Origin: Skermanella pratensis
Lineage (GTDB): Bacteria > Pseudomonadota > Alphaproteobacteria > Azospirillales > Azospirillaceae
Direction of reading: 5' to 3'
Assembly (NCBI RefSeq): GCF_008843145.1
Contig: NZ_CP030265.1
Span: forward strand, 2,218,001-2,282,000
DNA: 64,000 nucleotides
Part shown: positions 19,255 to 43,149 of the stretch, in pieces
Layout of the letters: every line of letters starts with the position of its first letter
Position numbering within the stretch: the stretch's first letter is position 1
The notes under the pieces: generated by a model
The model's input: only the letters and a program-made list of their open reading frames with translations
Told to the model about the DNA's origin: nothing
Databases searched by the model: none
Made by a program: the position numbers and the translations under genes

Positions 19255-19498
19255 GCTCGATGGTGCCGGGCGGCTCGCCGCCGCAAGGCCGCCAAGAGGG
19301 AATCCGGTGGGGGTGCGTCAAGCCGCCCGAGTCCGGAGCTGCCCCCGCAACTGTAAGCGGCGAGCGGGTGTCGTCCACTTGAAGCCACTGGTGCCCCGCG
19401 GCATCCGGGAAGGCGATGACGCCCGCATGGACCCGCGAAGCCAGGAGACCTGCCGTCGAGCGCCGTCGATTCAATCACGGCCGGGCGGGGTGCACCGG
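19255..19498 (+). ncRNA. Cobalamin riboswitch 1, upstream of the cobU operon
   Basis: Landmarks in order are a 5' GGTGCCGGG region, GAGGGAATCCGGTG, the core GCTGCCCCCGCAACTGTAAGC, and the B12 box AGCCAGGAGACCTGCCG near 19440. A downstream hairpin, CCGGGCGGGGTGCACCGG (19481-19498), abuts the purine-rich GGAGGTGG ribosome binding site. The loop GCGGGG is complementary to CCCCGC in the L5 region (near 19395), a likely kissing-loop switch. Adenosylcobalamin-dependent repression of cobUWNOQ is expected. Confidence 0.95.
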
Positions 19499-19503
19499 CG
19501 GAG

Positions 19504-20057
19504 GTGGAGCATGATGTCGATTCCAGCAGACCCTTCGGGCCGCCGCCCGGCGTGACCCTCGTTCTCGGCGGCGCCCGGTCGGGCAAGAGCCGCTTCGCCG
19601 AGGCCATGGCCGAACAGGCGTCGCGCCCGATCTATCTCGCCACCGGCAGGGCGTGGATACCGAGATGGCAGACCGCATCGACGAGCACCGCGACAGGCGC
19701 GGTCCGCGCTGGACCACGGTAGAGGAACCCCTCGACCTCGCCGGAACGCTGCCGGGCCTCGCAGCGCCCGATGCGGTCGTGCTGGTGGACTGCCTCACCC
19801 TGTGGGTCACCAACCTGATGCTGGAGGAGCGCGACATCGCGCACGAGACCCGCGGCCTCGTCGAATGCCTGCCGACCCTGGCCGGCCCCGTGGTGTTCGT
19901 CTCCAACGAGGTCGGGCTGGGCATCGTGCCGGACAACGCCATGGCGCGGGCCTTCCGCGACCACGCCGGCCGGCTCCACCAGGAGGTGGCGGCGGTGGCC
20001 GACAGCGTCTATTTCCTGGTCGCGGGGCTGCCCGTGACCGTCAAAAGCAATCGTTAG
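19504..20057 (+). pseudogene. cobU: CobU/CobP adenosylcobinamide kinase/guanylyltransferase, frameshifted
   Basis: This bifunctional enzyme phosphorylates adenosylcobinamide and attaches GMP. Frame 1 holds the P-loop ([20 protein letters not shown]) up to YLATGRAW near 19650. The family sequence then continues one base back, as [12 protein letters not shown] through [25 protein letters not shown] and [11 protein letters not shown] to the stop at 20057. One missing base, most simply a G turning GTGGGATACC into GTGGATACC, joins both parts into about 184 aa, a normal length. It is either a sequence error or a real mutation. The start is uncertain (GTG 19504 or GTG 19552). It is first in the riboswitch-controlled operon. 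Confidence 0.85.
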
Positions 20058-20066
20058 GAACCTTCC

Positions 20067-21098
20067 TTGAGCACCAAGATCCCCGCGACGGTCATCACCG
20101 GCTTCCTCGGCGCCGGCAAGACCAGCCTGGTCCGCCACCTGATCGAGAACGCCCGCGGCCGCCGGCTGGCCCTGATCATCAACGAGTTCGGCGACCTCGG
20201 CGTCGATCGCGAGCTCCTGGCCGGCTGCGGCGTCGAGAACTGCCGGGAGGAGGACATCGTCGAGCTGACCAATGGCTGCATCTGCTGCACCGTCGCCGAC
20301 GATTTCCTGCCGACCATCGAGAAGCTGCTGAACCAGCCGCAGCCGCCCGATCATATCGTGATCGAAACATCCGGCCTGGCGCTTCCCAAGCCGCTGGTCA
20401 AGGCGTTCGCCTGGCCCGAGATCCGCACCCGCGTGACCGTCGACGGCGTGATCGCCGTGATCGATGCCGAGGCCGTCGCCGCCGGCCGATTCGCCAGCGA
20501 CCCCGAAGCCGTGCAGGCCGCGCGCGACGCCGACGAGTCCCTCGACCACGAGAGCCCCTTGGAGGAACTGTTCGAGGAGCAGGTCCAGTGCGCCGACATG
20601 GTCGTCCTCAACAAGGCCGATCGGGTCGATGCCGCCACGCTGGAGGCGGTCACGGCCACGGTCGCCAAGCACCTGCGCCCCGCGGTCAAGACGGTGGTGT
20701 CGGTCCAGGGCGGCATCGATCCGCTGGTCCTGCTGGGGCTGGGCGCCGCGGCGGAGGACGACCTGGACAGCCGCCCGTCGCACCACGAGCTGGAAGGCGA
20801 GGGCCACGACCACGACGATTTCGACAGTTTCGTGATCGGGCTCGGCACGGTGGAGACGCCGGAAGAGGTCGAGGCGCGCATCCTGGCCGCCGTCGCCGCC
20901 CATGACATCCTGCGGATCAAGGGCTTCCTGGACGTGGCGGGCAAGCCGATGCGCCACGTGGTGCAGGGCGTCGGCGACCGCATCCAGCGCTATTACGACC
21001 GGCGCTGGAAGCCGGAGGAGGAGCGCCGGAGCGAGCTGGTGGTGATCGGTCAGCGCGGGCTCGACCGGGCGGCGGTCGAATCCATCCTGCGCGGCTGA
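20067..21098 (+). CDS. cobW: CobW, cobalamin-biosynthesis G3E GTPase
   Basis: P-loop GTPase of the COG0523/G3E family, thought to deliver cobalt to the CobNST chelatase in the aerobic pathway. 343 aa, TTG start with AGGAAC upstream. Walker A is GFLGAGKT (residues 12-19), the metal-binding CxCC appears in TNGCICCTV, and the guanine-specificity motif is NKAD. A His/Asp-rich loop (HHELEGEGHDHDD) near residue 245 probably binds metal. The CobW C-terminal domain follows. It lies 9 bp after cobU and 6 bp before cobN, within one operon. Confidence 0.95.
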   Translation: MSTKIPATVITGFLGAGKTSLVRHLIENARGRRLALIINEFGDLGVDRELLAGCGVENCREEDIVELTNGCICCTVADDFLPTIEKLLNQPQPPDHIVIETSGLALPKPLVKAFAWPEIRTRVTVDGVIAVIDAEAVAAGRFASDPEAVQAARDADESLDHESPLEELFEEQVQCADMVVLNKADRVDAATLEAVTATVAKHLRPAVKTVVSVQGGIDPLVLLGLGAAAEDDLDSRPSHHELEGEGHDHDDFDSFVIGLGTVETPEEVEARILAAVAAHDILRIKGFLDVAGKPMRHVVQGVGDRIQRYYDRRWKPEEERRSELVVIGQRGLDRAAVESILRG

Positions 21099-21104
21099 GC
21101 CGCC

Positions 21105-24100
21105 ATGCATCTGCTGGCCGCCCAGCCCGGTACCGTCTCCGACGGCAGCGAGGCCGCCGATCTCGGCCAGACCGCGGGCGACATCGTCTTCCTGTCGGCC
21201 GCCGACACCGAACTCGCCTGCCTGGCATCGGCCCATGACAGGCTCGGGTCCGGCTTCCCCAGCCTGCGCCTCGCCAGCCTGCTCCAGCTCGGTCATAACC
21301 TGTCGGTCGATCTCCATGTGGAGCGGGTGGTGTCGCGGGCGAAACTGGTGGTGGTCCGGCTGCTGGGGGAGAGCGCTACTGGCCCTACGGGATCGAGCAG
21401 GTGGCGGACGCCTGCCGGCGCGGCGGCATCCCGCTGGCGGTGCTGCCGGGCGACGACCAGCCCGACCCGGAACTGGCGCGCTTCTCGACCCTTCCGGGCG
21501 ATGCGGTCCACCGGCTGTGGCAGTACTGCGTCCAGGGCGGCGTCGAGAACGCCGCCGGGCTGCTGCGCTACGCGGCATCGCTCATCGGCCGGGGCGGCGG
21601 CGATTGGCGGGAGCCGATGCCGCTGATGCGGGCCGGGATCTACTGGCCGGGCCGCGACCGGCCGGGGCTCGACGACCTGCGCCGGGCCTGGACGCCGGGC
21701 GCTCCCGTCGCCGCCATCCTGTTCTACCGCGCGCTGGAGCAGGCGGCCAACACCGCCGTCATCGACGCCCTGATCGATGCCCTGCGCCGGGCCGGGGTCA
21801 ACGCGCTGCCGATCGCGACGACCAGCTTGAAGGAGAAGGTCGCGGCCGGGATCGTCGCCGATCTGCTGGCGCGGGCCGAGCCCGACGTGATCCTCAACGC
21901 GACTTCCTTCGCGGTGTCCCAGCCGGGAGCGGCGCGGTCGGCGACGCCGTTCGACGGTTCGGACTGCCCTGTCTTCCAGGTCGTGTTCTCCGGCGGGTCG
22001 GAGGCGGCGTGGCGCGGCGGGACGACCGGCTTGTCCGCCCGCGACATCGCCATGAACGTGGCCCTGCCGGAGGTGGACGGCCGGCTGATCACCCGCGCCG
22101 TCAGCTTCAAGGCGGAGGCCCGGCGCCACGAGGCGACCCAGAGCTGGGTGCTGTCCTACCGGCCCGTCGCCGACCGCGTCGGTTTCGTCGCGGCCCTGGC
22201 GAAATCCTGGGCGCGGCTGCGCCGGACGCCGCCGGCCGAGCGGCGCGTCGCGGTCGTCATGGCGAACTATCCGAACCGCGACGGCCGCCTCGCCAATGGC
22301 GTCGGCCTTGATACGCCGGCCGGCGTGGCGCGGTCGCTCCGGGCCCTGGCCCAGGCGGGCTACGCGGTCACCGGGGCGCCACCGGATTCCGCCGCGCTGA
22401 TGGAGCGGATCGGCGCCGGCGTGACCAACGACCTGACGGCGCTGGACCGGCGCACGGTCTCCGAGACGCTGTCCCTGGATGGGTACCGTACGTTCTTCGC
22501 GACCTTGCCCGAAGCCGTCCGTGCCGCGGTCACCGGACGCTGGGGCGCCGCGGAGGAGGACCCGTACGTGCGGGACGGGTGGTTCCTACTGCCAGCGGTC
22601 CGGTTCGGCAACGTCGCCGTCGCGATCCAGCCGGCGCGGGGATACCAGATCGATCCGTCCAAGACCTACCACGACCCCGACCTGGTGCCGCCGCACGCCT
22701 ACCTGGCCTTCTACGCCTGGGTGCGCCGGGAGTTCGACGCCCACGCCGTCGTCCATTTCGGCAAGCACGGCAATCTGGAATGGCTGCCGGGCAAGTCGCT
22801 GGCCCTGTCGGAGGAGTGCTTCCCGGAGGTGGCGCTGGGACCCGTCCCGCACCTCTACCCCTTCATCGTCAACGATCCCGGCGAGGGGACCCAGGCCAAG
22901 CGCCGCGCCGCCGCCGTCATCATCGACCACCTGACCCCGCCGCTGACCCGGGCGGAGAGCTACGGCCCGCTCCGCGAGCTGGAAATGCTGGTGGACGAGT
23001 ATTACGAGGCGGCCGGCATCGATCCGCGCCGCATCGCCCTCCTGCGCGAGCGCATCCTGGAACTCAGCGCCGCGACCGGCCTGGACGTGGATTGCGGCGT
23101 CAGCCGGGACGACGAACCGCAGGAGGCCCTGGCGAAGCTCGACAGCCATCTGTGCGAGCTGAAGGAACTCCAGATCCGCGACGGCCTCCATGTCTTCGGG
23201 GAAGCTCCCGAGGGCGGGCTGCTGACCGACCTTCTGGTGGCGCTGACCCGGTTGCCGCGCGGCAAGGGGGAGGAGCGGGACGCCTCGCTGATCCGGGCGC
23301 TGGCGGCGGACCTGGGGCTCGGGGGGCTCGGCTTCGACCCGCTGGACTGCGCCATGGCCGAGCCCTGGCATGGGCCGCGGCCCGACGCCCTCGATACGGG
23401 GGGAGTCTGGCGCAGCCACGGCGACACCGTGGAAAGGCTGGAGGAACTCGCCCGGCGGCTGGTCGCCGGCGATGCCGTTTCGGAGCCGGAATGGACCCGC
23501 GCCGGCGTCGTCCTGGATTATATCCTGTCGGACCTTAGGCCGACCGTCGCCGCCTGCGGCGCCGCGGAACTGGAAGGACTGCTGCGCGGTCTCGACGGCC
23601 GCTTCGTCGAGCCCGGCCCCTCCGGCGCCCCGACCCGGGGCCGGCCGGAGGTTCTGCCGACCGGGCGCAACTTCTATTCCGTCGATACCCGTGCCGTGCC
23701 CACGCCTGCCGCCTGGCACCTGGGTTGGAAATCCGCCTCCCGCGTGGTCGATCGCTACCTCCAGGAGAACGGCGACTATCCCCGCACCATGGCGCTGTCA
23801 GCCTGGGGGACCGCCAACATGCGGACCGGCGGCGACGATATCGCCCAGGCGCTGGCCCTGATGGGAGCCCGGCCGACCTGGGACACCGGCACGGGCCGGG
23901 TGACCGGGTTCGAGATCTTGCCGGCCGGCGTGCTGGACCGGCCGCGGGTGGACGTGACGCTCCGGGTTTCAGGCTTCTTCCGCGACGCCTTCCCCGCCCA
24001 GATGGACTTGGTGGACAGCGCCGCCCGGGCCATCGCCGACCTGGACGAGCCCGACGACGTGAACCCCCTGGCCGCCCGCGTCCGGGCCGACGCCGCAGCG

Positions 24101-24853
24101 CTGGTGGAGGCCGGCGTCGATCCCGCCGCAGCCCGGCGGCGGGCCGGCCACCGGGTTTTCGGCTCCAAGCCGGGCGCCTATGGCGCCGGCCTCCAGGCCC
24201 TGATAGACGAGCGCGGCTGGGAGACCGAGAAGGACCTCGCCGAAGCCTATCTCGCCTGGGGCGGGTACGCCTATGGCGGCGGGGTGGACGGGGCGCCTGA
24301 ACGGGCCTTGTTCGAAACCCGTCTGGGCTCCGTCCAGGCCGTCCTGCACAACCAGGACAACCGCGAGCACGATTTGCTGGACAGCGACGACTATTACCAG
24401 TTCGAGGGCGGAATGAGCGTCGCCGTGCGGACCCTGTCGGGCCGGGCGCCGACCGTCTACCACAACGACCACTCTCGCCCGGAAAGTCCCCGCGTCCGGA
24501 CCCTGGAGGAGGAGATCGCCCGCGTCGTCCGCGGCCGTGTGGTCAATCCGAAATGGATCGCCGGGGTCATGCGCCACGGCTACAAGGGCGCCTTCGAGCT
24601 GGCCGCCACCGTCGATTACCTCTTCGCCTTTGCCGCGACGGCGCGGTGCGTCCGGGACCACCATTTCGACGCGGTGTTCGACGCCTATGTGGCCGACGTC
24701 CATGTCCGCGACTTCATGGCCGGGGCCAACCCCGCCGCACTCCGGGAAATGGCGGAGCGGCTGGCCGAGGCCCAGGATCGCGGGTTGTGGCGACCGAAGT
24801 CCAATGCCGCCTACGATACGCTGAAGAATCTGAGCCGGGGAGAGACGCCATGA
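21105..24853 (+). pseudogene. cobN: Cobaltochelatase subunit CobN, frameshifted near 21370
   Basis: Large subunit of the ATP-dependent cobaltochelatase that inserts Co(II) into hydrogenobyrinate a,c-diamide. The N-terminus begins at ATG 21105 (MHLLAAQPGTVSDG) and runs to VVVRLLG. The family sequence then resumes in another frame as YWPYGIEQVADACRRGG and continues unbroken to the stop, including HFGKHGNLEWLPGK, NDPGEGTQAKRR, TGRNFYSVD and HNQDNREHD. Restoring one G in the run GGGGG at about 21367-21371 would give LLGGERYWPYG and a protein of about 1249 aa, the normal size. CobS and CobT are not in the window. The stop overlaps cobO as ATGA. Confidence 0.9.
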
Positions 24854-25473
24854 AGACCGAAGGCATGACCGAGGAAGAGATCAACGCGCGGCACGCCGAG
24901 AAGATGGCCAAGAAGAAGGCCGCCCGCGACCGCATGATCGCGACCAAAACCCTCGAGAAGGGGCTTCTGATCGTCCACACCGGCAAGGGCAAGGGCAAGT
25001 CCACCGCGGCGCTCGGCATGGTGATGCGGGGGATCGGCCACGGCTTCAAGGTCGGCATCGTGCAGTTCGTCAAGGGCAAGTGGGAGACCGGCGAGCGGGT
25101 CGTGCTGGAGCGATTCTCCGACCAGGTCACCATCAACACCATGGGCGAAGGCTTCACCTGGGAGACCCAGGATCGCCAGCGCGACATCGCCGCCGCCCGC
25201 GCCGCGTGGGACCAGGCGGTCAGCCTGATCCGCAACCCCGACTACAAGATGGTGCTTCTCGACGAACTCAACATCGTGCTGCGCTACGACTACCTGCCGC
25301 TGGACGAGGTGATCGAGGTCCTCCGCTCCAAGCCGGAGGACACCCACGTCATCGTGACCGGCCGCAACGCCAAGGACGAGTTGCTGGAGATCGCCGACCT
25401 CGTGACCGAGATGACCATGGTCAAGCACCCGTTCCGCGACGGCGTGAAGGCCCAGGCGGGCATCGAGTTTTGA
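24850..25473 (+). CDS. cobO: Cob(I)yrinic acid a,c-diamide adenosyltransferase (CobO/BtuR family)
   Basis: Transfers the adenosyl group of ATP to Co(I) corrinoid. 207 aa. A charged N-terminal helix ([18 protein letters not shown]) precedes the P-loop [14 protein letters not shown], and there is a conserved VQFVKGKW. The Walker-B-like [25 protein letters not shown] and the closing [16 protein letters not shown] are typical. ATG overlaps the cobN stop as ATGA, and its own stop overlaps the cobQ start, which indicates tight translational coupling. Confidence 0.97.
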
Positions 25474-26924
25474 CCAAGGCCATCATGTTCATGGGCACCG
25501 GCTCGGACGTCGGCAAGTCCATGATCGTCGCCGGGCTGTGCCGCGCCTTCACGAACCGGGGCCTCCGGGTCCGCCCGTTCAAGCCGCAGAACATGTCCAA
25601 CAACGCGGCCGTCACGGCGGACGGCGGCGAGATCGGCCGCGCCCAGGCGCTCCAGGCGCGGGCCTGCCGGATGGCGCCGGTCACCGACATGAACCCGGTG
25701 CTGCTCAAGCCCCAGACCGAGATCGGCGCCCAGGTGGTGGTCCAGGGCCGCGTCGTCGGCGCCATGAAGGCGCGCGAGTACCAGACCCGCAAGGGCGAGC
25801 TGATGCCGGCCGTGCTTGAGAGCTTCCATCGCCTGGGCCGGGACGCCGACCTGATCCTGGTGGAGGGCGCGGGGAGCGCTTCGGAAGTCAACCTGCGGGC
25901 CGGCGACATCGCCAACATGGGCTTCGCCGAAGCCGCCGACCTGCCCGTCGTCCTGATCGGCGACATCGAGCGCGGCGGCGTGATCGCCGGCATCGTCGGC
26001 ACCTGCGCAGTCCTGCCGCCGGCCGAGCGCGCCCGGCTCAAGGCTTTCCTGATCAACAAGTTCCGGGGCGATACCAGCCTGTTCGACGACGGCCTCCGAA
26101 TCATCAAGGAGCATACCGGCCTGTCCAGCCTGGGCGTGGTCCCCTGGTTCGCGCAGGCGGATCGGCTGCCGCCCGAGGACGCGCTGGCTCTGGCCTCGCA
26201 GCGAACGGCCGTGGGCCGGGCGATCCGGATCGCCGTGCCCCAGCTTTCGCGGATCGCCAATTTCGACGATCTAGACCCCCTGCGCGCGGAGCCCGACGTC
26301 ACGGTCGAGATGATCCCGCCGGGCCGGCCGCTGCCGGGCGACGCCGACCTCGTCATCCTGCCCGGCACCAAGGCGACCATCCCCGACCTGGAGTTCTTCC
26401 GCGCCCAGGGCTGGGACATCGACCTCGCCGCCCATGTCCGCCGGGGCGGCCACGTGCTCGGGATCTGCGGCGGCTTCCAGATGCTGGGCCGTCGCCTCGA
26501 CGACCCGGCGGGCACCGAGGGCGCTCCCGGCGCCGTGGACGGCCTCGATCTTCTCGATATCGAGACGGTCCTGGACGGCCCCAAGACCCTGGTCGAGGTC
26601 ACCGGCCGCCACCTCGCCAGCGGCGCGGAACTGCGCGGCTACGAGATGCATATCGGGCGCACCGCAGGCCCCGCGCTGGACCGGCCGCTTCTCGACCTGT
26701 CCGGCCGTCCCGAGGGTGCCGTGTCCCCGAACGGCCGGATCGGCGGTTGTTACGTCCACGGAATGTTTTCTGCGGACGGGTTCCGCCACGCCTTCCTCTC
26801 CGCCATCCGCCATCGCGCCGAGAGCGGGCTGAACTACGAGGACACCGTCGAGACCACCCTCGACGCGCTGGCCCGCCATCTGGAAACCCACCTGGACCTG
26901 GACGGGTTGTTCGCAATTTCGTAG
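25470..26924 (+). CDS. cobQ: Cobyric acid synthase CobQ
   Basis: Glutamine-dependent amidation of adenosylcobyrinic a,c-diamide at positions b, d, e and g. 484 aa. The N-terminal dethiobiotin-synthetase-like ATPase domain has [12 protein letters not shown] and [11 protein letters not shown]. The C-terminal type-1 glutaminase domain has the nucleophile in [10 protein letters not shown] and the His in YVHGMF. The start is a TTG overlapping the cobO stop as TTGA; an in-frame ATG six codons in would cut into the first beta strand. The stop codon lies inside the left arm of the inverted repeat that follows. Confidence 0.97.
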
Positions 26925-27025: not shown

Positions 27026-28000
27026 CTAGAAAAGGAACGCCAGCGACGCGATCAGCCCGGCCTGGATGCCGCACGCCGAGGCCATGATGCGGAGCGCCCA
27101 TCGGATATCGTCGGACGTCGCCTCCCGCCGCCCGCCTTCGCCCATCCAGGCATCCTCCACCACGACCGTTCCGTAGCGGCGGGGTCCCGCCAGCGCCAGC
27201 CCCAGCGCGCCGGCCATGGCGGCTTCCTGCCAGCCGGCGTTGGGCGACTTGTGCTTGCCGGCATCGCGCAGCATGGTCTTCCAGGCCGCATGGGCGCGCC
27301 GCAGCCGCTTGCCCCGCAGGGCGACGGCGCTGCCAAGGATGATGAACAGGCCGGCCAGCCGGGCGGGCATCAGGTTCACCAGATCGTCCAGCCGCGCCGC
27401 CGCCCAGCCGAAGGCCCGGTGGCGCGGGGTCCGGTGGCCGATCATGCTGTCCGCCGTGTTGATTGCCTTGTAGGCGACCAGACCGGGAAACCCCAGAACC
27501 GCGAACCAGAAGACCGGCGCCACGATGCCGTCGGAGAAGTTCTCCGAGCAGGACTCGATGGCGGCACGGCAGACGCCGTGCTCGTCCAGGCTTTCCGGGT
27601 CGCGCCCGACGATCATGGACACCGCCCGGCGCCCTCCCGCCAGCCCCCCGCTCTCCAGCGCGGATGCCACCGCCGCCACATGGGTGTAGAGGCTCCGTTG
27701 GGCGATCAAAGTGCTGGCGAGGATGGCTTCCAGCACCCAGCCGAGCGGCATGGCTTCGAAAGCCAGGCTGGCGAGCCAGGCCGGGCCGGCGGTCACCGCC
27801 AGCAGCAGCAGGACGGCCGCGATCCCCGCCAGCCGCCGCGCCGCCGGCCTCCAGCCATCGCGGTTGAGCGTCCGGTCCAGCAGGCTGACAAGCCGGCCGA
27901 ACAGGACCACGGGATGGGGCAGGCGTGCATAGATCCAGGCCGGTTCCCCGAACGCCGCGTCTATCGCCAGGGCCAGCAGGAGAACGGCATCCTGGTTCAT
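27026..28000 (-). CDS. cobD: Adenosylcobinamide-phosphate synthase CobD/CbiB
   Basis: Membrane protein attaching (R)-1-amino-2-propanol phosphate to adenosylcobyric acid. 324 aa. It contains LAIDAAFGEPAW and HPVVLFGRLVS at the N-terminus, several hydrophobic helices (RLAGIAAVLLLLAV), the conserved SMIVGRDPESLDEHGVCRAAIES with ENFSDGIVAPVFW, and SPNAGWQEAAMAGALG. It converges on cobQ and overlaps cobB by 4 bp (ATGA). The order on the minus strand is cobA, cobB, cobD. Confidence 0.96.
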   Translation of the reverse strand: MNQDAVLLLALAIDAAFGEPAWIYARLPHPVVLFGRLVSLLDRTLNRDGWRPAARRLAGIAAVLLLLAVTAGPAWLASLAFEAMPLGWVLEAILASTLIAQRSLYTHVAAVASALESGGLAGGRRAVSMIVGRDPESLDEHGVCRAAIESCSENFSDGIVAPVFWFAVLGFPGLVAYKAINTADSMIGHRTPRHRAFGWAAARLDDLVNLMPARLAGLFIILGSAVALRGKRLRRAHAAWKTMLRDAGKHKSPNAGWQEAAMAGALGLALAGPRRYGTVVVEDAWMGEGGRREATSDDIRWALRIMASACGIQAGLIASLAFLF

Positions 28001-30127: not shown

Positions 30128-30155
30128 TGCCGCCACTTTACACCGCGTCTATAAG
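30127..30155 (+). promoter_or_regulatory. Candidate promoter of cbiD/cobK giving a near-leaderless mRNA
   Basis: TTGCCG (30127-30132), a 17-bp spacer, then TATAAG (30150-30155). A start 6-7 nt after the -10 box would fall at about 30161-30163, the ATG itself. The adjacent sequence has no Shine-Dalgarno motif, which fits a leaderless transcript. The -35 box overlaps the start codon of divergent cobA. Confidence 0.35.
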
Positions 30156-35241: not shown

Positions 35242-36443
35242 GTCTTGTTCAGCGCCAGTTGGGTGACCGGCATCAGGGGACGCCAGCCGGAAAACGGGCC
35301 GACCGGTTCGGCCCGGGAAATCGCGATGCGGGTCAGGCTGCCGCCCAGCCGGGCGTAAGCCCCGGCCAGCACCTGCTCGCCCTCGATGGTGACGGCATTC
35401 GCGACCAGCCGGCCGCCGCTCGGCAGCGCGTCCCAGCAGGTCTCGAACAACCCTGGCGCCGTGATGCCGCCGCCGATGAAAACCGCGTCGGGGGCTGGCA
35501 GGCCGGCCAGGGCCGCCGGCGCCTTGCCCTCGACGATGGAGAGCCGGGGACAGCCCAGCGCTTCGGCATTGGCCGCAATCAGGGCCAGGCGGTCGCCGCG
35601 CGGCTCGATCGCGACGGCGCGGCAGGCGGGGTGGTGGCGCATCCATTCCAGGGCGATGGAGCCGCAGCCGGCCCCCACGTCCCACAGAAGCTGCCCGGGA
35701 ACCGGGGCCAATGCCGCCAACGTCGCAGCCCTGACCTCCCGCTTGGTCAATTGCCCGTCGTGGTGGAAGGCTTCGTCCGGCAATCCCGGCGTACGCGGCA
35801 GCAGCGGGGCTCCGGGCTCGGCTACGCATTCGACCGCGATCGTGTTGAGATCGGCGTAGTCGTCCGCTCCGGCCCATTCCCGCCGCCGCTCCCGGGGGCC
35901 GCCCAGATGCTCCAGCACGGTTATCCGGCTGTACCCGTAACCGCGCCGCCTCAGCAGGCCGGCGACATTCCCGGGCGTGCCGCCGTTCTCGGAAAGGATC
36001 AGCAGGCGCGCGCCGGGCTGGACATGGGCGTGGAGCAAGGCGGCCGGACGGCCATGGAGCGACAGCGTCTCGACCTCCGCCCGCGCCCAGCCCATCCGGG
36101 CGCAGGCCAGGGCGAAGGCTCCCGGTGCCGGCATGACGATCATTTCACCGGTGGCAACCCGGCGCGACAGGGTGGCACCGATGCCGTGGTCCATGGGGTC
36201 GCCGCTCGCCAGCACGCAGACCCTGCGCCCGCGCAGGCCCAACAGCCGCTCGATCCCCGCGCTGAACGGGGAAGGCCAAGCCAGCCGCTCGCGCCCGTCG
36301 TCGGGGATCATGGCGAGATGGCGCTCGCCGCCGACCAACACCTCGGCGCTATCGATCAGGCGTCGTCCGGCCGGCGACACGCCGCCCAATCCGTCCTCGC
36401 CGATGCCGACGACGGACAGCCACGCTCCGGCGGAGCCCGTCAT
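35238..36443 (-). CDS. cobL: Precorrin-6Y C5,15-methyltransferase (decarboxylating) CobL
   Basis: 401 aa with both halves. The N-terminal CbiE-like methylase (WLSVVGIGEDGLGG, VLASGDPMDHGIGATLSRR) runs to about residue 205. The C-terminal CbiT-like domain carries a SAM-binding LLWDVGAGCGSIALEWM and PDAVFIGGGI. It methylates C5 and C15 and removes the C12 acetate carboxylate. It starts as ATGA over the cobH stop. Length is normal for the fused CobL of aerobic organisms. Confidence 0.96.
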   Translation of the reverse strand: MTGSAGAWLSVVGIGEDGLGGVSPAGRRLIDSAEVLVGGERHLAMIPDDGRERLAWPSPFSAGIERLLGLRGRRVCVLASGDPMDHGIGATLSRRVATGEMIVMPAPGAFALACARMGWARAEVETLSLHGRPAALLHAHVQPGARLLILSENGGTPGNVAGLLRRRGYGYSRITVLEHLGGPRERRREWAGADDYADLNTIAVECVAEPGAPLLPRTPGLPDEAFHHDGQLTKREVRAATLAALAPVPGQLLWDVGAGCGSIALEWMRHHPACRAVAIEPRGDRLALIAANAEALGCPRLSIVEGKAPAALAGLPAPDAVFIGGGITAPGLFETCWDALPSGGRLVANAVTIEGEQVLAGAYARLGGSLTRIAISRAEPVGPFSGWRPLMPVTQLALNKT

Positions 36444-37066
36444 GCCGAAGCCCCGATCGCGAGCGCATTGACCGCGGCCGACGCCATGGCGCTGCCGCCG
36501 CGCCGCCCGCGGACGGTGATGAAGGGGATGCCGCGGGGGTCGGCCGCCAGCTCGGCCTTGGATTCGGCTGCGCCGACGAAACCCACGGGGAAACCCAGGA
36601 TCACCGCCGGGCGCGGCGCTCCGGCGTCCAGAAGTTCCAGCAGGCGGAATAGGGCGGTCGGCGCGTTGCCGATCGCGACGATCGATCCTTCAAGGTGCGG
36701 CAACCAGAGATCAAGGGCCGCGGCCGAACGGGTGGTGCCCAGGCCGGCGGCCAGGGTCGGCACCGAAGGCTCGGTCAGGGTACACAACACCTGATTTGCC
36801 GCTGGCAGGCGCGATGCCATGATGCCGGACGCGACCATGCGGGCATCGGTCAGGATGGCGGCTCCCGCGTCCAGCGCGGCCCGGCCGGCCGACACGGCAT
36901 CGGCGCTCCAGGCGAGGTCGCGGACCAGATCCACCATGCCGCAGGCGTGGATCAGGCGCGTCGCTATCTCCGCCATGTCGGGCGGGAGGCCGGCCAGATC
37001 GGCCTCCTCCGCGATCGTCGCGAAGGAGCGGCGGTAGATCTCCGCCGGGTCACGCAGGTATTCCAT
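36440..37066 (-). CDS. cobH: Precorrin-8X methylmutase CobH
   Basis: 208 aa. It moves the methyl group from C11 to C12 to give hydrogenobyrinate or cobyrinate. Seen are YLRDPAEIYRRSFATI, the catalytic-type His in RLIHACGMVDLV, TDARMVASGI, IGNAPTALFRLLELL, and PVGFVGAAESKAEL with a RGRRGGSAMA segment. All are family hallmarks. It lies 7 bp downstream of cbiX. Confidence 0.97.
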   Translation of the reverse strand: MEYLRDPAEIYRRSFATIAEEADLAGLPPDMAEIATRLIHACGMVDLVRDLAWSADAVSAGRAALDAGAAILTDARMVASGIMASRLPAANQVLCTLTEPSVPTLAAGLGTTRSAAALDLWLPHLEGSIVAIGNAPTALFRLLELLDAGAPRPAVILGFPVGFVGAAESKAELAADPRGIPFITVRGRRGGSAMASAAVNALAIGASA

Positions 37067-37073
37067 CGCCCGA

Positions 37074-38219
37074 TCAGTCGCGAGCCTGTTTCGTCATACT
37101 CCTCGGCCCCAGCGGATGATCGGCGTGGGGGTAGGGGTGGTGATGGTGCCCGGCGGCGCCGCGATCGTGGGAGTGGCCATGATCGTGGGAATGTCCGTGA
37201 TCATGGGCATGGCGATGATCCGCATGGTCATGATGGTCATGATGGTCATGATCGTGCCCATGCCCATGCCCATGCCCGTGGTCATGACCGTGCGCCTGGC
37301 CGGTGCCGATGCCTTCCACGTGGTGGTGGTGGCTTTCCTGGCGCAATCCGACTTCCGCCTCGAAGCCCAGGACCTGCTCCCGGTACTTGCACATCTGGCA
37401 GTTCATGTTGCCGGTGCCCTGGAGGATCTCGGTGACACGGTCCGAGAAGGTCTCCAGCACCATCGGATGGTCGTTGAGGTAGCCGGCCTTGATGAACTCG
37501 ATGTTCGGGTAGCGCGCCGCGACGGCGTCGGCGTAGTCGTAGATCCGCCGGACCAGGATGCCGGTGAACAGGAAGTACGGGAACACGACGATGCGCCGGT
37601 AGCCCAGCTTCGCCGCATGCTCCAGCCCCGGCTCGACCAGCGGGAAGGTGACGCCGGAATAGGACGTCTCGGCCCAGCCGAAGCCCATCCCCTCCCACAG
37701 CATGCGGGTCACCTTCGCCACGTTGGAGTTGGCGTCCGGGTCGGACGAGCCCCGGCCGACCACCATCAGCAGCGTCTCGTGGCGCGGCACGTCGCCGCCG
37801 GCCAGGGCCAGGGCCTCGGCCACCCGGTCGCCGGCCGCGCGCAGCATCTTCAGGTCGATGCCCAGCTCGCGGCCGTAATGGATGGTCATGCCCTCGTTCT
37901 GCGCCTGGTAGGCGTTCAGCACCGAGGGAATGTCGTTTTTCGCGTGGCCGGCGGCGAAGAGCATGCCGGGGATCGCCAGCACCTTGGTGACACCCTTGGC
38001 GCGCAGCTTGTCCAGGCCGTCGCGGATGATCGGCTTGGCGAACTCCAGGTAGCCGTACTCCACCGCGTCGAACGGCAGCTTGGCGCGGAGCTGCCCGGCC
38101 ACGACGGCGAATTCCTGAACGGCGCCGGTGTCCCGGCTGCCGTGGCCGCACAGCATGACGCCGAGCTTTTCGGAAGAAGCCTGTGCCGGCCCCTGGGAGG
38201 GTTTGGCGATCGCGTTCAT
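37074..38219 (-). CDS. cbiX: Sirohydrochlorin cobaltochelatase CbiX, long form with Cys motif and His-rich tail
   Basis: 381 aa starting at ATG 38219 after GAGAGGAACG. Residues 15-280 hold two class-II chelatase repeats: GVMLCGHGSRDTGAVQEF, AIPGMLFAAGHAKNDIP, VVGRGSSDPDANSNVAKV and VFPYFLFTGILVRRI. MNCQMCKYR near residue 285 matches the MxCxxC iron-sulfur motif of long CbiX forms. The last 80 residues are an extreme His/Asp/Gly tail with more than 30 His, a likely cobalt-storage or chaperone segment. CbiX inserts Co(II) early, in contrast to CobN, which acts late. It is first in its operon, behind cobalamin riboswitch 2. Confidence 0.96.
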   Translation of the reverse strand: MNAIAKPSQGPAQASSEKLGVMLCGHGSRDTGAVQEFAVVAGQLRAKLPFDAVEYGYLEFAKPIIRDGLDKLRAKGVTKVLAIPGMLFAAGHAKNDIPSVLNAYQAQNEGMTIHYGRELGIDLKMLRAAGDRVAEALALAGGDVPRHETLLMVVGRGSSDPDANSNVAKVTRMLWEGMGFGWAETSYSGVTFPLVEPGLEHAAKLGYRRIVVFPYFLFTGILVRRIYDYADAVAARYPNIEFIKAGYLNDHPMVLETFSDRVTEILQGTGNMNCQMCKYREQVLGFEAEVGLRQESHHHHVEGIGTGQAHGHDHGHGHGHGHDHDHHDHHDHADHRHAHDHGHSHDHGHSHDRGAAGHHHHPYPHADHPLGPRSMTKQARD

Positions 38220-38232: not shown

Positions 38233-38460
38233 CCGGTGCACCCCGCCCGGTCCCTTGTTGTTGCGAGTGACACCGGCAGGTCTCCTGGCTCGCAGGTCGC
38301 CGTCGGGGCCGTTGCCTTCCCGGCCCGCGATCTGGGCCAGTGGCGTGAAATCGGAACCGACTCACTGCTCACAGTTGCGGGGGCAGCCACGGATTTGGCA
38401 TACGGCTTTACAGCCCGGCCGCACCGTGTTCCCTTTTCACCTCGCGCCCGAACGGGGACG
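38233..38460 (-). ncRNA. Cobalamin riboswitch 2, upstream of cbiX
   Basis: Read on the minus strand: GGGAACACGGTGCGG, ATCCGTGGCTGCCCCCGCAACTG, CCACTGGCCC...GGGCCGGGAAGG, and the B12 box GCGAGCCAGGAGACCTGCCGG near 38275-38295. The downstream hairpin CCGGGCGGGGTGCACCGG (38233-38250) lies directly before the AGAGAGGAAC ribosome binding site of cbiX. Control of the whole cbiX-cobM operon is expected. Confidence 0.95.
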
Positions 38461-38471
38461 CAAAGGAACCA

Positions 38472-39587
38472 ATGTCCATGGGTCAGCAGTCTTACGGCCC
38501 CCCCGCATCAGCGTCAATCGAGAATGCGCCGTTCGCGGCGCCCGAGAATGCGCCGGTTGCGGCGTCCGAGAATGCGCCGGTTGCGGCGCGGGTCCGCGAC
38601 CATGGCGGCGGCCTTGCCCGGGCCGAGGCCCGATTCGGCCACCCGGCTGAGGGGTGGGTGGACCTGTCCACCGGCATCAATCCCTGGCCCATCCGGGTCC
38701 CCGCGCCGAGTCCCGACGCTTGGACCCGCCTGCCGGACCGGGACGCGCTCGACCGGCTCCTCGCCGCCGCCGGGCGCTATTTCGGCGCGAACCCCGCCGC
38801 CATCGTGGCTGCGCCCGGGTCCCAGGCGCTGATCCAGGCGGTGCCCCGGCTTGTGCCGCGGGGCAGGGCGGCGATCCTGGGCTTCACCTATGCCGAGCAC
38901 GCCCGCTGCTGGAGCCTCGCCGGCCACGAGGTCGCGATAAGCGAAACGCTCGACGAGGCATCGGACGCCGCCTGCGTCATAGTGACCAACCCCAACAATC
39001 CGGACGGCCGGCAGGTCGACCCGGACCGGCTCCTGGCGCTCGCCGGGCGGCAGGCCGCGCGGGGCGGGTTGCTCCTGGTGGACGAGGCTTTCGCCGACAT
39101 GGCCCCGGCGATCAGCGTCGCCTCTGCCGCCGGCCGGCCCGGCCTCTGCGTGCTGCGCTCCTTCGGCAAGTTCTTCGGGCTCGCCGGGCTCCGCCTCGGC
39201 TTCGCGCTCGGACCCTCCGGCCTGGTGTTGGCGCTGGAGGATCACCTGGGACCCTGGGCGGTTGGAGGGCCGGCGCTGGAGGTGGGCGCCGCGGCGATGG
39301 CCGACCGGGACTGGATCGAGGAAACCCGCGGCAGCCTCGCCTCGGCCGCGCGCGACCTCGACGGATTGCTGCGGGCGCATGGGCTGGAAGTCGTCGGGGG
39401 GACCGATCTCTACCGCCTGACCCGCACCGCCCATGCCGCCGCCCTGTTCGAGCATCTTGGCCGGTCCGGCATCCTGGTCCGCCCGTTCGAGGCGCGGCCG
39501 GACTGGCTGAGGTTCGGCCTGCCGCCCGATGCCGCGGCAGCGGCGCGCTTGCGCGACGCCCTCGGCTCGTTCATCTTCCCGGCATGA
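38472..39587 (+). CDS. cobC: CobC, threonine-phosphate decarboxylase-like aminotransferase with repeat-built N-terminus
   Basis: PLP enzyme of aminotransferase fold I that makes (R)-1-amino-2-propanol phosphate for the CobD step. 371 aa. Conserved parts are DHGGGLARAEARFG, WVDLSTGINPWP, GSQALIQAVPRL, VTNPNNPDGR, VDEAFADM, and the PLP Lys in SFGKFFGLAGLRLGF. ATG 38472 follows AAAGGAACC. About 38 residues precede the usual start of the family and include three 8-residue repeats of the type ENAPVAAx. The gene lies on the opposite strand to riboswitch 2, only about 12 bp from its 5' end. Confidence 0.95.
   Translation: MSMGQQSYGPPASASIENAPFAAPENAPVAASENAPVAARVRDHGGGLARAEARFGHPAEGWVDLSTGINPWPIRVPAPSPDAWTRLPDRDALDRLLAAAGRYFGANPAAIVAAPGSQALIQAVPRLVPRGRAAILGFTYAEHARCWSLAGHEVAISETLDEASDAACVIVTNPNNPDGRQVDPDRLLALAGRQAARGGLLLVDEAFADMAPAISVASAAGRPGLCVLRSFGKFFGLAGLRLGFALGPSGLVLALEDHLGPWAVGGPALEVGAAAMADRDWIEETRGSLASAARDLDGLLRAHGLEVVGGTDLYRLTRTAHAAALFEHLGRSGILVRPFEARPDWLRFGLPPDAAAAARLRDALGSFIFPA
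38520..38588 (+). repeat. Three tandem 24-bp repeats inside the cobC 5' end
   Basis: The unit GAGAATGCGCCGGTTGCGGC plus four bases occurs at 38520-38543, 38544-38567 and 38568-38588 (last copy 21 bp). Copies differ at only a few bases and each adds eight residues to CobC. The position is also where the promoter of the divergent riboswitch 2/cbiX transcript would be expected. Confidence 0.95.
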
Positions 39588-40225
39588 AGAAAGTCCCGAC
39601 TTTCGATGTGGGTTTTCAGGAGCGGCTGGAAGATCTGTTCCGCTGGCGCCGCGACGTGCGCCGCTTCCGGACCGACCCGGTCGACGACGAACTGATCGAG
39701 CGGCTGGTCCAGGTCGCGGCCTTGGCGCCGTCGGTCGGCTACAGCAGGCCGTGGCGATTCGTCCGGGTCGACGATCCCGGGCGCCGTGCCGCCGTCCGTG
39801 GGGTTTTCGAACGCTGCAACGCCGAGGCGCTGTGCGGCTACACGGGCGAACGCGCCCGGCTCTATGCCACGCTCAAGCTGGCCGGGCTGAACGACGCGCC
39901 GGTGCAGATCGCCGTCTTCAACGACGACGAGACCGCGCGCGGCCACGGCCTCGGCCGGCGCACCATGCCGGAAATGCTCCGCTACTCCACCGTCACCGCC
40001 GTCTATACCTTCTGGCTGGCGGCGCGGGCTCATGGGATCGGCGCGGGCTGGGTATCCATCCTCCATCCGGAAACCGTCCGGCACGCGCTCGATGTGCCGC
40101 CTGCCTGGTCGCTCGTGGCCTATCTGTGCGTCGGCCTGCCGGTCGAGGAGCACATCGATCCCGAACTGGAGCGTGCAGGGTGGGAGGCCCCCGAAGAGGC
40201 GGCATCGGTCCTGCTGCGCCGCTGA
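39584..40225 (+). CDS. bluB: 5,6-dimethylbenzimidazole synthase BluB
   Basis: Flavin-destroying nitroreductase-fold enzyme that turns reduced FMN and oxygen into the lower ligand of B12. 213 aa. Seen are RWRRDVRRFRTDPVDD, LAPSVGYSRPWRFV, AVFNDDETARGHGLGRRTMPEML and GIGAGWVSILHP, all specific to BluB. The start overlaps the cobC stop as ATGA. Because it requires oxygen, it shows that B12 is completed aerobically in this organism. Confidence 0.96.
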   Translation: MKKVPTFDVGFQERLEDLFRWRRDVRRFRTDPVDDELIERLVQVAALAPSVGYSRPWRFVRVDDPGRRAAVRGVFERCNAEALCGYTGERARLYATLKLAGLNDAPVQIAVFNDDETARGHGLGRRTMPEMLRYSTVTAVYTFWLAARAHGIGAGWVSILHPETVRHALDVPPAWSLVAYLCVGLPVEEHIDPELERAGWEAPEEAASVLLRR

Positions 40226-40297
40226 CACTGGCGGACGGTGATCGGCGCGTGAAACACGGAAGCTTGACGGACAAACGCTTTGCCCTCTAGCTTCATC

Positions 40298-40535
40298 CCC
40301 GGTGACAGGTTCCCCCGAGCGAGAGTCGAGGGGGATTAATAGGGAACACGGTGCGGCGGACCCCCCAGGGGACCTAATCCGTGGCTGCCCCCGCAACTGT
40401 AAGCAGCGAGTCTGCGCCGGCATCAAGCCACTGGCCCCGCAATGGGCCGGGAAGGCATCGGCGTCCGACCGGGACCTGCGAGCCAGGAGACCTGCCGTCA
40501 CCGGAAGAGCCGTATGTCCGGGCGGGGTGCACCGG
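40298..40535 (+). ncRNA. Cobalamin riboswitch 3, upstream of cbiMNQO
   Basis: GGTTCCCCC at the 5' end, GGGAACACGGTGCGG, CCGTGGCTGCCCCCGCAACTG, CCACTGGCCCCGC...GGGAAGG and the B12 box GCGAGCCAGGAGACCTGCCG near 40480-40498. The following hairpin CCGGGCGGGGTGCACCGG (40518-40535) is the same as in the other two riboswitches, and its loop GCGGGG is complementary to CCCCGC at about 40435-40441. Repression of cobalt uptake by B12 is expected. Confidence 0.95.
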
Positions 40536-40622: not shown

Positions 40623-40633
40623 TTATCTGTTCA

Positions 40634-41305
40634 ATGCATATCATGGAAGGCTACTTGCCGCCTCTCCATGCCGCGGCCTGGATGGTGGCCGCGGCGCCTT
40701 TCGTCGTCGCCGGCGTCCGCCGGATCAGGCGCGTGGTCGATGACCATCCCGAAACGAAGCTTCTGCTCGCCGCATCCGGCGCCTTCGCCTTCGTGCTGTC
40801 GGCGCTGAAGATCCCGTCGGTGACGGGAAGCTGCTCGCACCCGACCGGCGTCGGCCTGGGCGCCGTCCTGTTCGGGCCGAACGCCATGGCGGTGCTGGGC
40901 ACCATCGTCCTGATGTTCCAGGCCCTGCTGCTGGCCCATGGCGGGCTGACCACGCTGGGCGCCAACGTCTTCTCCATGGCCGTCGTCGGTCCCTGGGTCG
41001 CCTATGGCGTCTGGCGTCTGGCCGCCGGCCTGGGCAGGAGCTTCGCGGTCTTCCTGGCCGCGGCGCTCGGCAACCTGGCGACCTATTGCACGACCTCGGT
41101 CCAGCTGGCCCTGGCCTTTCCCGACCCGCTGACCGGCTTCGGGGGGGCGCTGGTCAAGTTCCTGTCGATATTCGCGATCACCCAGGTGCCGCTCGCGGTG
41201 GTGGAGGGGATCCTGACGGTCGTAGTCGTCAATCTGCTGGTGCAGTATAGCCGCGACGAGCTGTCGGCGCTGGCGTTCGGAACCAAGGTGATGGGGGCGA
41301 AATGA
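40634..41305 (+). CDS. cbiM: Cobalt ECF transporter substrate-capture subunit CbiM
   Basis: 223-aa membrane protein, the metal-binding component of the CbiMNQO cobalt importer. [14 protein letters not shown] at the N-terminus includes the conserved His2 whose backbone and side chain ligate the metal. Further on are [20 protein letters not shown] and [18 protein letters not shown], then five or six hydrophobic helices. In-frame ATG 40595 is possible but would move the essential MH terminus inward, so 40634 is preferred. The frame is downstream of riboswitch 3 and a masking hairpin. Confidence 0.96.
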
Positions 41306-41607
41306 GGGGGCGCAACGCAATTCTTCTCCTGGTGGCCGCCGCCATCGTGGTCCTGCCGCTGCTGGTCGTCGGCAATGCCGAGTTCTCCGGCGCCGATGGG
41401 CAGGCGCAGGACCTGATCGACCGGGCCGGATACCAGCCCTGGTTCGAGCCCCTGTGGGAACCGCCCAGCGGCGAAATCGAGAGCCTGCTGTTCTCGCTGC
41501 AGGCGGCACTCGGCGCCGGGCTGCTCGGTTACTATGTCGGCCTCCGGCGAGGACGGCGGGAAGGCGGACCGGACGATCGGCGGACGGAGCTTCATGCTGG
41601 CGATTGA
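41302..41607 (+). CDS. cbiN: Cobalt ECF transporter accessory subunit CbiN
   Basis: 101 aa with two membrane segments ([17 protein letters not shown] at the start; [19 protein letters not shown] near residue 75) separated by a periplasmic loop. The loop contains the CbiN signature [14 protein letters not shown] and [22 protein letters not shown]. CbiN is needed for metal loading of CbiM. It starts as ATGA over the cbiM stop and overlaps cbiQ by 14 bp. Confidence 0.95.
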
Positions 41608-42343
41608 CCGCCACGCCTGGACCAACCGCTGGCACGACCTCCATCCGCTGGAAAAGCTGCTGCCCGCGCTCGGCATGCTGCTGGTGACCCTGGTCCTGCC
41701 GCCCTGGCCCACGGCACCGCTGTCGATCGCCGCCATGCTGGCACTGACCATCCTGGGAGCGGGCGTGCCGGTCGGGGCCGTGCTCGGCACGCTCGCGATC
41801 CCGCTCGGATTCCTGCTGACCGGCGCGCCGGTGCTGGCGCTGGCGGTCGATGTTTCCGACGGCCTGCATGTCGGGCTGGCGCCCGGCGGGCTGGAGGCGG
41901 CGGCTGCCGTGACCTTGCGGTCGCTTGCCGCGACTTCCTGCCTCGTCTTCCTGATCCTGACCACGCCCGTCGCCGACCTGATGCCGCTGCTGGGGCGGCT
42001 TGGCGTGCCGCGGCTGGTGCGTGACCTGATCCTGCTGACATACCGGCTGATCTTCGTCTTCCTGGACTGTGCCGCCACCGGCCGGCAGGCCCAGGTCGGC
42101 CGCCTCGGCTACGATGGTCCCCGGCGCAGCCTGCGCTCGGCCGGCTGGCTGGCGGGGAGCCTGTTCCAGCGCTCCCTCGCCCGCGGCCGGCGGCTGGAGA
42201 TCGGGATGGCGGCGCGCGGTCTTGGCGGCGACCTGCCGCAGCCGGCCGACGACCGTGCGCTCTCGGCTTGGCGCCTGCTGGCGGGAGCGGCGCTGCCGCT
42301 CGGCATCGCGTCGGCGGCGCTCCTGGTGCGGCGGGGCGGATGA
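41594..42343 (+). CDS. cbiQ: Cobalt ECF transporter transmembrane subunit CbiQ
   Basis: 249-aa membrane coupling protein. ATG 41594 follows GGAG and gives [21 protein letters not shown], a typical CbiQ start. Hydrophobic helices follow (LPALGMLLVTLVLP, AVLGTLAIPLGFLL). The ATPase-coupling Ala-Arg-Gly motifs are seen in RSLARGRRLEIGMAARGLGG. An upstream in-frame start lies deep inside cbiN and is less likely. Confidence 0.95.
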   Translation: MLAIDRHAWTNRWHDLHPLEKLLPALGMLLVTLVLPPWPTAPLSIAAMLALTILGAGVPVGAVLGTLAIPLGFLLTGAPVLALAVDVSDGLHVGLAPGGLEAAAAVTLRSLAATSCLVFLILTTPVADLMPLLGRLGVPRLVRDLILLTYRLIFVFLDCAATGRQAQVGRLGYDGPRRSLRSAGWLAGSLFQRSLARGRRLEIGMAARGLGGDLPQPADDRALSAWRLLAGAALPLGIASAALLVRRGG

Positions 42344-43149
42344 TGCTGGAGGCGCAGGCGCTCCGCTACGACTATGCCGGCGGCATCGAGGCGCTGCGCG
42401 GCCTCGACCTCGCCGTCGGGCGGGGGCGCAGGCTGGCCCTGCTCGGGCCGAACGGCTGCGGCAAGACGACCCTGTTCCTGCACCTGAACGGCACCCTGAA
42501 GCCGCGCGGCGGGCGCGTGATGCGCGACGGATCGCCGGCGGGATACGACCGCCGTGCCCTCCGCGACTGGCGCAACCGGGTGGCCCTGGTGCTCCAGGAT
42601 CCGGACGACCAGATCTTCGCCGCGACGGTCGCCCGCGACGTCGCTTTCGGGCCGCTCAACCTGGACCTTCCCGAAGCCGAGGTGCGCCGGCGGGTCACCG
42701 CCGCCCTGGCCGATCTCGGCATCGGGGATCTGGCCGACCGCCCGACCCATATGCTCAGCTTCGGCCAGAAGCGGCGCGTCGCCATCGCGGGCGCCCTGGC
42801 GATGCGGCCGGAGGTGCTTCTGCTGGACGAACCCACCGCCGGGCTGGACGCCGATGGCGTCATTCGCCTCATGGCGGTCCTGGACGGCCTTGCCGCGCAG
42901 GGAATGACGCTGGTCTTATCCACCCACGACGTCGACCTCGCCTATGCCTGGGCGGACGACATCGCGATCCTGTTCGAGGGCAGGACGCTGATCCAGGGAA
43001 CGGCGCCCGACGTGCTGGGAGACGCCGAGGCGCTCGCCCGGGCGCGGCTGCGGCCACCCCTGCTGCTGGAACTGGCGAGGGCGATGAAGCTGCCCCGGCC
43101 ATGGCCCCGGACACGGGAGGCCATGCTTGGATCCTGTGCCGGCGGGTGA
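42340..43149 (+). CDS. cbiO: Cobalt ECF transporter ATPase CbiO
   Basis: 269-aa ABC ATPase. Walker A is GPNGCGKTT, the Q-loop is VLQDPDDQIF, and the signature is LSFGQKRRVAIA, the normal CbiO variant of LSGGQ. Walker B is LLLDEPTAGLD and the switch His is in STHDVD. It powers the CbiMNQ complex. Its start overlaps the cbiQ stop as ATGA. Length is typical. Confidence 0.96.
   Translation: MMLEAQALRYDYAGGIEALRGLDLAVGRGRRLALLGPNGCGKTTLFLHLNGTLKPRGGRVMRDGSPAGYDRRALRDWRNRVALVLQDPDDQIFAATVARDVAFGPLNLDLPEAEVRRRVTAALADLGIGDLADRPTHMLSFGQKRRVAIAGALAMRPEVLLLDEPTAGLDADGVIRLMAVLDGLAAQGMTLVLSTHDVDLAYAWADDIAILFEGRTLIQGTAPDVLGDAEALARARLRPPLLLELARAMKLPRPWPRTREAMLGSCAGG

Follow-up and report, generated by a model that had tools for sequence, protein, structure and literature searches.

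The window analysed here (G000:C1:2218001-2282000, 64,000 nucleotides) lies in the genome of a Skermanella strain (Alphaproteobacteria, family Azospirillaceae), a single contig of 5,869,433 bases that is 99.83% complete, and carries a vitamin B12 (cobalamin) biosynthesis cluster led by several cobalamin riboswitches (Table 1). B12 synthesis is taught as following one of two exclusive routes, which differ in the time of cobalt entry into the ring. As a preliminary description of this stretch had stated, intact cbiX, cbiD and cbiG, the latter two as parts of fusions, were found here together with cobN, cobW and bluB. The riboswitch-led cbiX operon is ordered cbiX-cobH-cobL-cobI-(cbiG-cobJ)-cobM, followed by cobA, cobB and cbiB, and the cbiD-cbiJ fusion frame is located on the strand opposite to it. 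In a search with this one-frame fusion, the query was matched over both domains in 41 of the 80 loci kept, many of them from alphaproteobacteria. Riboswitches ahead of the cobU run and of cbiX are present at equivalent places in the congeners G072, G073 and G075.

Table 1. Features of the B12 cluster, with positions counted from the first base of the window.
Feature	Position	Strand	Supporting match
Cobalamin riboswitch, upstream of cobU-cobW-cobN-cobO-cobQ	19244..19471	+	RF00174, 87.5 bits
cobU/cobP, interrupted frame (one or two single-base differences vs congeners)	19511..20057	+	PRK05800 only from profile position 39; split frames
cobW, cobalt metallochaperone GTPase	20067..21098	+	TIGR02475, 537 bits, cut-off 332
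cobN, class I cobaltochelatase large subunit	21105..24853	+	TIGR02257, 1528 bits (cut-off 822), from profile position 109
cobO, corrinoid adenosyltransferase	24850..25473	+	TIGR00708, 242 bits
cobQ, cobyric acid synthase	25476..26924	+	TIGR00313, 451 bits
cbiB/cobD, adenosylcobinamide-phosphate synthase	27026..28000	-	TIGR00380, 224 bits
cobB/cbiA, a,c-diamide synthase	27997..29298	-	NF002204, 498 bits
cobA, uroporphyrinogen-III C-methyltransferase	29303..30136	-	TIGR01469, 275 bits
cbiD-cbiJ (CobK) fusion, one open frame	30163..32025	+	PF01888, 294 bits; PF02571, 239 bits
cobM/cbiF, C11-methyltransferase	31974..32741	-	TIGR01465, 327 bits
cbiG-cobJ (CbiH) fusion	32738..34540	-	CbiG_N and CbiG_C; TIGR01466, 295 bits
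cobI/cbiL, C20-methyltransferase	34537..35241	-	NF004647, 283 bits, cut-off 271
cobL (CbiE-CbiT fusion)	35238..36443	-	TIGR02467 and TIGR02469 above cut-off
cobH/cbiC, precorrin-8X methylmutase	36440..37066	-	NF006136, 329 bits, cut-off 276
cbiX, two-domain class II chelatase, CbiX-L type, MXCXXC and His-rich tail	37074..38219	-	two PF01903 stretches
Cobalamin riboswitch, upstream of the cbiX operon	38258..38488	-	RF00174, 118.9 bits
cobC/cobD-type aminotransferase (cobC label from context)	38472..39587	+	PF00155, 121 bits
bluB, 5,6-dimethylbenzimidazole synthase	39602..40225	+	TIGR02476, 272.6 bits, cut-off 150
Cobalamin riboswitch, upstream of cbiMNQO	40289..40513	+	RF00174, 112.2 bits
cbiM, cbiN, cbiQ, cbiO, cobalt transporter	40634..43149	+	TIGR00123, PF02553, TIGR02454, TIGR01166 above cut-off

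CobG and CobF, described earlier as absent from the window, remained below their curated cut-offs across the whole genome (best matches 84.6 bits against 234.8 and 34.3 bits against 195.8, respectively, the latter falling within cobI), as did the N-terminal CobZ model (TIGR02485, described as TcuA; best E value 5.7e-5). Intact cobS (614.7 bits) and cobT (884.8 bits) were found adjacent to each other at ~4.98 Mb, ~2.7 Mb from the window, so that the genome-wide search for cobG, cobZ, cobF, cobS and cobT proposed with the preliminary description returned the last two only. The early-cobalt gene set is complete (CbiX, CbiG with N- and C-domains, CbiD and CbiJ, with CobG and CobZ below cut-off), and the late-cobalt set is represented by CobN, CobS, CobT and CobW. 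In a PF02514 search the window cobN was the sole CobN of the genome; the other PF02514 protein was rejected as a second CobN, being BchH (2199.8 bits) with BchN nearby. These two genes, at G000:C1:1885000-1904000, indicate that the genome carries bacteriochlorophyll synthesis genes.

Two samples were used for comparison, an order sample of 76 genomes (completeness at least 95%, window genome G000 counted in) and a class sample of 290 genomes, in which CbiG_N and CobN were searched genome-wide and cbiX and cobG were read from gene neighbourhoods. In the order sample, CobT was discarded as a mark of late insertion, with matches in 76/76 genomes (74 above cut-off), also in those without CobN; given this presence in every order genome, CobS and CobT may serve a purpose outside B12 synthesis. 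Rhodobacter capsulatus CobZ belongs to the TIGR02485 family (CobZ N-term/TcuA), which was above cut-off in 22/76 order genomes, namely 19 with CobG above cut-off, G019 with a split CobG, and two of CbiG type. As CobZ candidates the proteins of these last two, the congener G072 and G053, were set aside, scoring higher as TcuA (705.7 and 660.8 bits) with TcuB as the next gene; they are read as tricarballylate genes, a CobZ-like role in B12 synthesis being possible by sequence.

In PMC7689651, CbiX-L is described as bearing its catalytic histidines on the N-domain and as having a histidine-rich region and, at the C-terminus, a 4Fe-4S site (MXCXXC according to a reference title there), whereas the CbiX of Paracoccus and Rhodobacter has its histidines in the C-domain and serves as siroheme ferrochelatase in Paracoccus; PMC4063343 likewise presents this alphaproteobacterial Paracoccus enzyme as a siroheme ferrochelatase. 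The window CbiX shares with the Paracoccus type the two-domain class II layout and the bacterial class. When its sequence was read against the description in PMC7689651, the N-domain histidines were kept, the corresponding C-domain positions were not histidine, and a C-terminal MXCXXC as well as a long His-rich tail were present. A siroheme ferrochelatase was rejected on the histidine positions and on the MXCXXC motif with its tail. The protein has the marks of the Bacillus megaterium-type cobaltochelatase CbiX-L, and insertion of cobalt into sirohydrochlorin is predicted. By pattern match among 71 CbiX proteins of relatives (64 from the class, 7 from the order), 70 carried the first N-domain motif, 67 the second, 68 MXCXXC and 66 a His tail behind it. 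In G045 and G048, two of the four order genomes that have CbiX and CbiG without CobN, CbiX lacks MXCXXC and keeps a His-rich tail.

Within the order, CobG was above cut-off in 48/76 genomes and CbiG_N in 13/76, with an overlap of 0, and CbiX reached at least 90 bits in the same 13 genomes as CbiG_N, all further CbiX matches, in these and other genomes, being below 50 bits. CbiD, earlier taken to mark early cobalt insertion, did not hold as such a mark; it was detected in 64/76 genomes, including all 48 with CobG, 47 of which have no CobF above cut-off (CobF: 2/76), and 12 of the 13 with CbiG. The exception is G053, which has CbiX and CbiG, no CbiD found and a CobF above cut-off (303.6 bits), i.e. 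an early-type set with a late-type C1-methyltransferase; its assembly is 97% complete, 2% contaminated and in 430 contigs. CobN was above cut-off in 59/76 genomes, including 9 of the 13 with CbiG and 46 of the 48 with CobG; in the other two CobG genomes CobN is split over two contigs.

In the class sample, CbiG_N was above cut-off in 78 genomes and CobN in 111, both together in 77 (Fisher p 6.6e-42, a value that ignores relatedness). CbiG neighbourhoods were collected from 77 genomes other than the window genome, reaching at most 9.8 kb to either side of CbiG_N, and contained cobI (77), cobJ (77), cobH (73), cobL (72), cobM (68) and cbiX (64). Of the 13 without cbiX, G347 and G303 end too near a contig end, G129 and G329 leave barely enough room, and G240, G162, G119 and G324 have room; the remaining five (G274, G197, G325, G100, G266) contain cobG. 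In these five an N-domain CbiG stands beside cobG with no cbiX within ~9.6 kb upstream, a late-cobalt-looking cluster. CbiG, the other gene that had been read as an early-cobalt mark, is consequently not strict on its own (5/77 beside cobG, no cbiX found), and it remains informative in combination with CbiX-L; it is this combination that is the informative early-cobalt sign. Among the 34 genomes with CobN and without CbiG_N, cobG lies beside cobN in 16 of the 20 examined and not in 4, and also in G012, examined in addition; cobW adjoins cobN in 27/32 CobN loci. The mosaic, which might have seemed peculiar to this genome, is thus a recurrent gene set of the class, in which CbiX and CbiG occur with CobN.

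Gene trees were calculated with IQ-TREE in quick mode (LG+G4, with Shimodaira-Hasegawa-like approximate likelihood ratio test support only), rows being kept by length and score limits. In the CobI tree (111 rows) the 84 CbiG-type rows form one side of a branch with support 99, and the same separation was obtained for CobJ (support 99) and CobM (support 96); the five genomes with both CobG and CbiG fall on the CobG side for CobI and CobJ and are not represented for CobM. For the remaining enzymes, changes between pathway types were needed, two each for CobH, CobL and CobB and three for CbiD. In the fuller CobN tree (76 rows of at least 750 residues, 24 of CobG type, with all five CobG and CbiG genomes), the CobG-type G334 and G275 and all five double genomes fall inside a 99-support clade with all 43 CbiG-type rows, some internal forks of which are weakly supported; two changes between CbiG and CobG type are required, or four when the five are assigned to the CobG type. 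So CobI, CobJ and CobM track the ring-contraction chemistry, and the later enzymes and, in the fuller tree only, CobN have been exchanged between types. CobN would then keep one function, late insertion, in both pathway settings.

These data were also weighed against a pathway that is late-cobalt throughout, with CbiG and CbiD acting on metal-free intermediates, another ring-contraction oxygenase in place of CobG, CobN as the true cobaltochelatase, and CbiX serving siroheme or another metal. The presence of CbiD in every CobG genome of the order, the five clusters with CbiG beside cobG and the near-constant partnership of CobN and CobW with CbiG would agree with it, as would the Paracoccus ferrochelatase of PMC4063343 and the fact that window CobI and CobH score above the cut-offs of profiles whose names refer to metal-free substrates. 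However, the window CbiX has the CbiX-L layout and lacks the C-terminal histidines that mark Paracoccus CbiX, its gene heads a riboswitch-led corrin operon, and cbiX is present in 64/77 CbiG neighbourhoods, 2 of the 13 misses being at contig ends and 5 having cobG. CobI, CobJ and CobM moreover form a group separate from their CobG-type counterparts, as expected if the substrates differ, and the assigned genes of the cluster all belong to known B12 or cobalt-transport families, among which no candidate oxygenase was met. This explanation is therefore considered unlikely.

Likewise, the CobN of this clade might have been repurposed, for instance as a dechelatase of corrins or haem or as a cobalt-handling protein, and no longer insert cobalt into corrin. 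The CobN/ChlH superfamily does include the haem dechelatase HmuS, but the open piece of the window CobN is far nearer to the solved CobN (9uk9, 1495.7 bits) than to HmuS (9d26, 347.8 bits), it nests with the CobN of CobG-type genomes and its relatives mostly have cobW adjacent, which makes such a change of function very improbable.

The frameshift reported earlier in cobN was recovered upon comparison with G073 and G074, the closest (~92% identical DNA) of the four congeners G072, G073, G074 and G075, as an uncompensated loss of one base within a G run at about 21365, which puts approximately the first 90-110 residues in another frame. In the same comparison cobU showed one such change at about 19655 and a second close to its start, and the other cob genes showed none against these two congeners. 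Overlapping frames near 51.2 kb, taken up as a further broken gene, were resolved into two genes, Maf and RNase E/G. CobU is needed for nucleotide-loop assembly, and its break, if real, would affect this step unless another kinase exists. The cobN gene is intact in all four congeners and in G001. For its long open piece the ratio of nonsynonymous to synonymous substitution rates (dN/dS) was 0.081 for G000 against G073 and 0.095 against G074, close to 0.077 for the intact pair G073 and G074, so that selection on cobN shows no sign of relaxation. Over five pairs among G000 and G072-G075, dN/dS was 0.077-0.135 for cobN, 0.010-0.115 for cbiX and 0.022-0.107 for cobW, inside the range of all 18 compared genes (0.010-0.325), values that show purifying selection on cobN and cbiX. 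The broken cobN is likely a recent private mutation or a sequencing error with little bearing on the clade. There is about an even chance that both breaks are assembly errors and that the organism's own genes form an intact and ordinary set, which would be compatible with the hybrid pathway set out below. The form of the breaks (single bases lost in G runs, all inside ~2 kb), the lack of any sign of relaxed selection and the restriction of the damage to cobN and cobU among the genes compared with G073 and G074 speak for such errors; against them stand the single, 99.83% complete contig, in which no other of the compared genes is broken, and the shortness of the G run in cobU.

As the most probable explanation (probability roughly 0.55), a hybrid pathway is proposed, with early cobalt entry by CbiX and a retained late entry by CobW together with CobN, CobS and CobT (CobNST), whose substrate is deduced here. 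CbiX, judged by its class, would load cobalt into sirohydrochlorin before ring contraction, and CobI, CbiG-CobJ, CobM, CbiD-CbiJ, CobL, CobH and CobB, judged by their families, would build cobyrinic acid a,c-diamide. CobW and CobN, with the CobS and CobT encoded elsewhere, would metallate any metal-free a,c-diamide as a second entry point. Metal-free corrin would have to arise in the cells or be taken up by them; leakage, uptake from neighbours or another reaction could provide it in the absence of CobG and CobZ. Two alternative insertion points had been one of the two possibilities raised in the preliminary description and, both entry points being encoded, it is the one favoured. The late chelatase, which is unrelated to CbiX, is likely a second entry kept by selection and not a leftover. 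According to PMC10206600, CobW serves late, not early, insertion; CbiK receives its cobalt along a favourable gradient, but the charging of CobNST requires CobW and guanosine triphosphate. This difference in cobalt charging may be a reason for having two gates. Tentatively, the model can be carried further: in most alphaproteobacterial cobalt-early B12 makers both gates might be obligate, CbiX-L loading cobalt to drive ring contraction and CobW-CobNST being needed to metallate cobalt-free corrin formed alongside. The ring-contraction module (either CbiX and CbiG with CobI/CobJ/CobM, or CobG and the enzymes that go with it) might be swapped as a block, with CobN staying and serving both.

Several observations weigh against the hybrid pathway. 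Four of the 13 order genomes with CbiX and CbiG (G045-G048, all of one genus, g4, in which CbiD is also kept) have no CobN; G171, a genome of 1.4 Mb with CbiX, CbiG and CbiD, is the lone CbiG_N genome of the class without CobN, which is dispensable there; and cobN and cobU are frame-broken in the window genome itself. The known metal-free route of ring contraction, which needs CobG or CobZ, is lacking, and the source of metal-free corrin is the weak point of the proposal. CobS and CobT are no specific sign of cobalt chelation, CobT being found in CobN-less order genomes and in the control Caulobacter vibrioides. The smaller CobN tree (56 rows; 7 of CobG type, one of the five double genomes) needs only one change between CbiG and CobG type. 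Finally, the cbiX riboswitch was seen only in Skermanella, an Rfam scan of 7 other CbiG loci, which did not include the stretch ahead of cobW, giving 0/7 with any riboswitch. The missing CobN of g4 and G171 and the broken cobN frame would also fit the other possibility raised at the outset, that CobN is a redundant, decaying relic of a late-cobalt ancestor and CbiX performs all cobalt insertion. Yet CobN is kept in 77 of the 78 class genomes with CbiG_N, which makes redundancy unlikely for the clade and shows that the early/late pairing is no local accident; the gene is intact in the relatives listed above, the broken copy bears the signature of purifying selection, and the damage extends to cobU and is thus not limited to a redundant gene. 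We regard a redundant CobN, and with it the suggestion that the frameshift reflects redundancy, as improbable.

Compared with known systems, the cluster shares CbiX-L, CbiG, CbiD and CbiJ, with CobG, CobF and CobZ below cut-off, with the early-cobalt pathway of B. megaterium and Salmonella (CbiX-L or CbiK, CbiG, CbiD, CbiJ), from which it differs by the fused CobL, CbiG-CobJ and CbiD-CbiJ and by the additional CobW, CobN, CobS, CobT and BluB. With the late-cobalt pathway of Pseudomonas denitrificans and R. capsulatus (CobG or CobZ, CobF, CobNST, CobW) it has CobW, CobN, CobS, CobT, CobO, CobQ and BluB in common, but CbiX and a full-length CbiG are found instead of CobG, CobZ and CobF. CobG-type clusters of genus g3 of the same family, which we take to be probably Azospirillum, likewise hold cobW-cobN-...-cobH-cobI-cobJ-cbiJ-cobL-cobM-cbiD-cobA-cobB in one cluster, with cobG where the window has cbiX and full-length cbiG. 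In the haloarchaeal pathway, the gap steps are presumably those of CbiD and CbiJ, as mapped by Enzyme Commission number. In PMC8305020 these gaps are two consecutive steps, and the cobalt-early haloarchaea, including Haloferax volcanii, combine an early-cobalt set with a CobN homologue whose role is left open, the authors speculating on salvage; the H. volcanii CobN has a ChlID-like neighbour, whereas here CobW adjoins and the genes for CobS and CobT lie elsewhere in the genome.

It has been noted before that neither chelatase is confined to its own pathway (PMC6461909). For the near-constant pairing of CbiX and CbiG with CobN in Alphaproteobacteria and for the proposed block swap, no account was found in the literature searched, which lay mostly outside subscription papers. 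Rodionov et al. 2003 may touch on this pairing. Coexistence of the chelatases is thus known in general. One class near-constantly joins the ring genes of one route to the chelatase gene of the other, and CobN, CobT, CbiD or CbiG alone is unsafe for calling a pathway aerobic or anaerobic. The pairing makes the reason for keeping both chelatases a testable question, for which the window's own family, with ring-contraction genes differing among genera, offers a natural comparison.

Next to the B12 cluster, on its upstream side, thiC is preceded by a thiamine pyrophosphate riboswitch (window positions 16336-18342), and such a riboswitch is kept in three congeners. An open frame at 18415-19176, which separates thiC from the first cobalamin riboswitch, gave a weak match to a terminase small subunit (PF03592, 32 bits).

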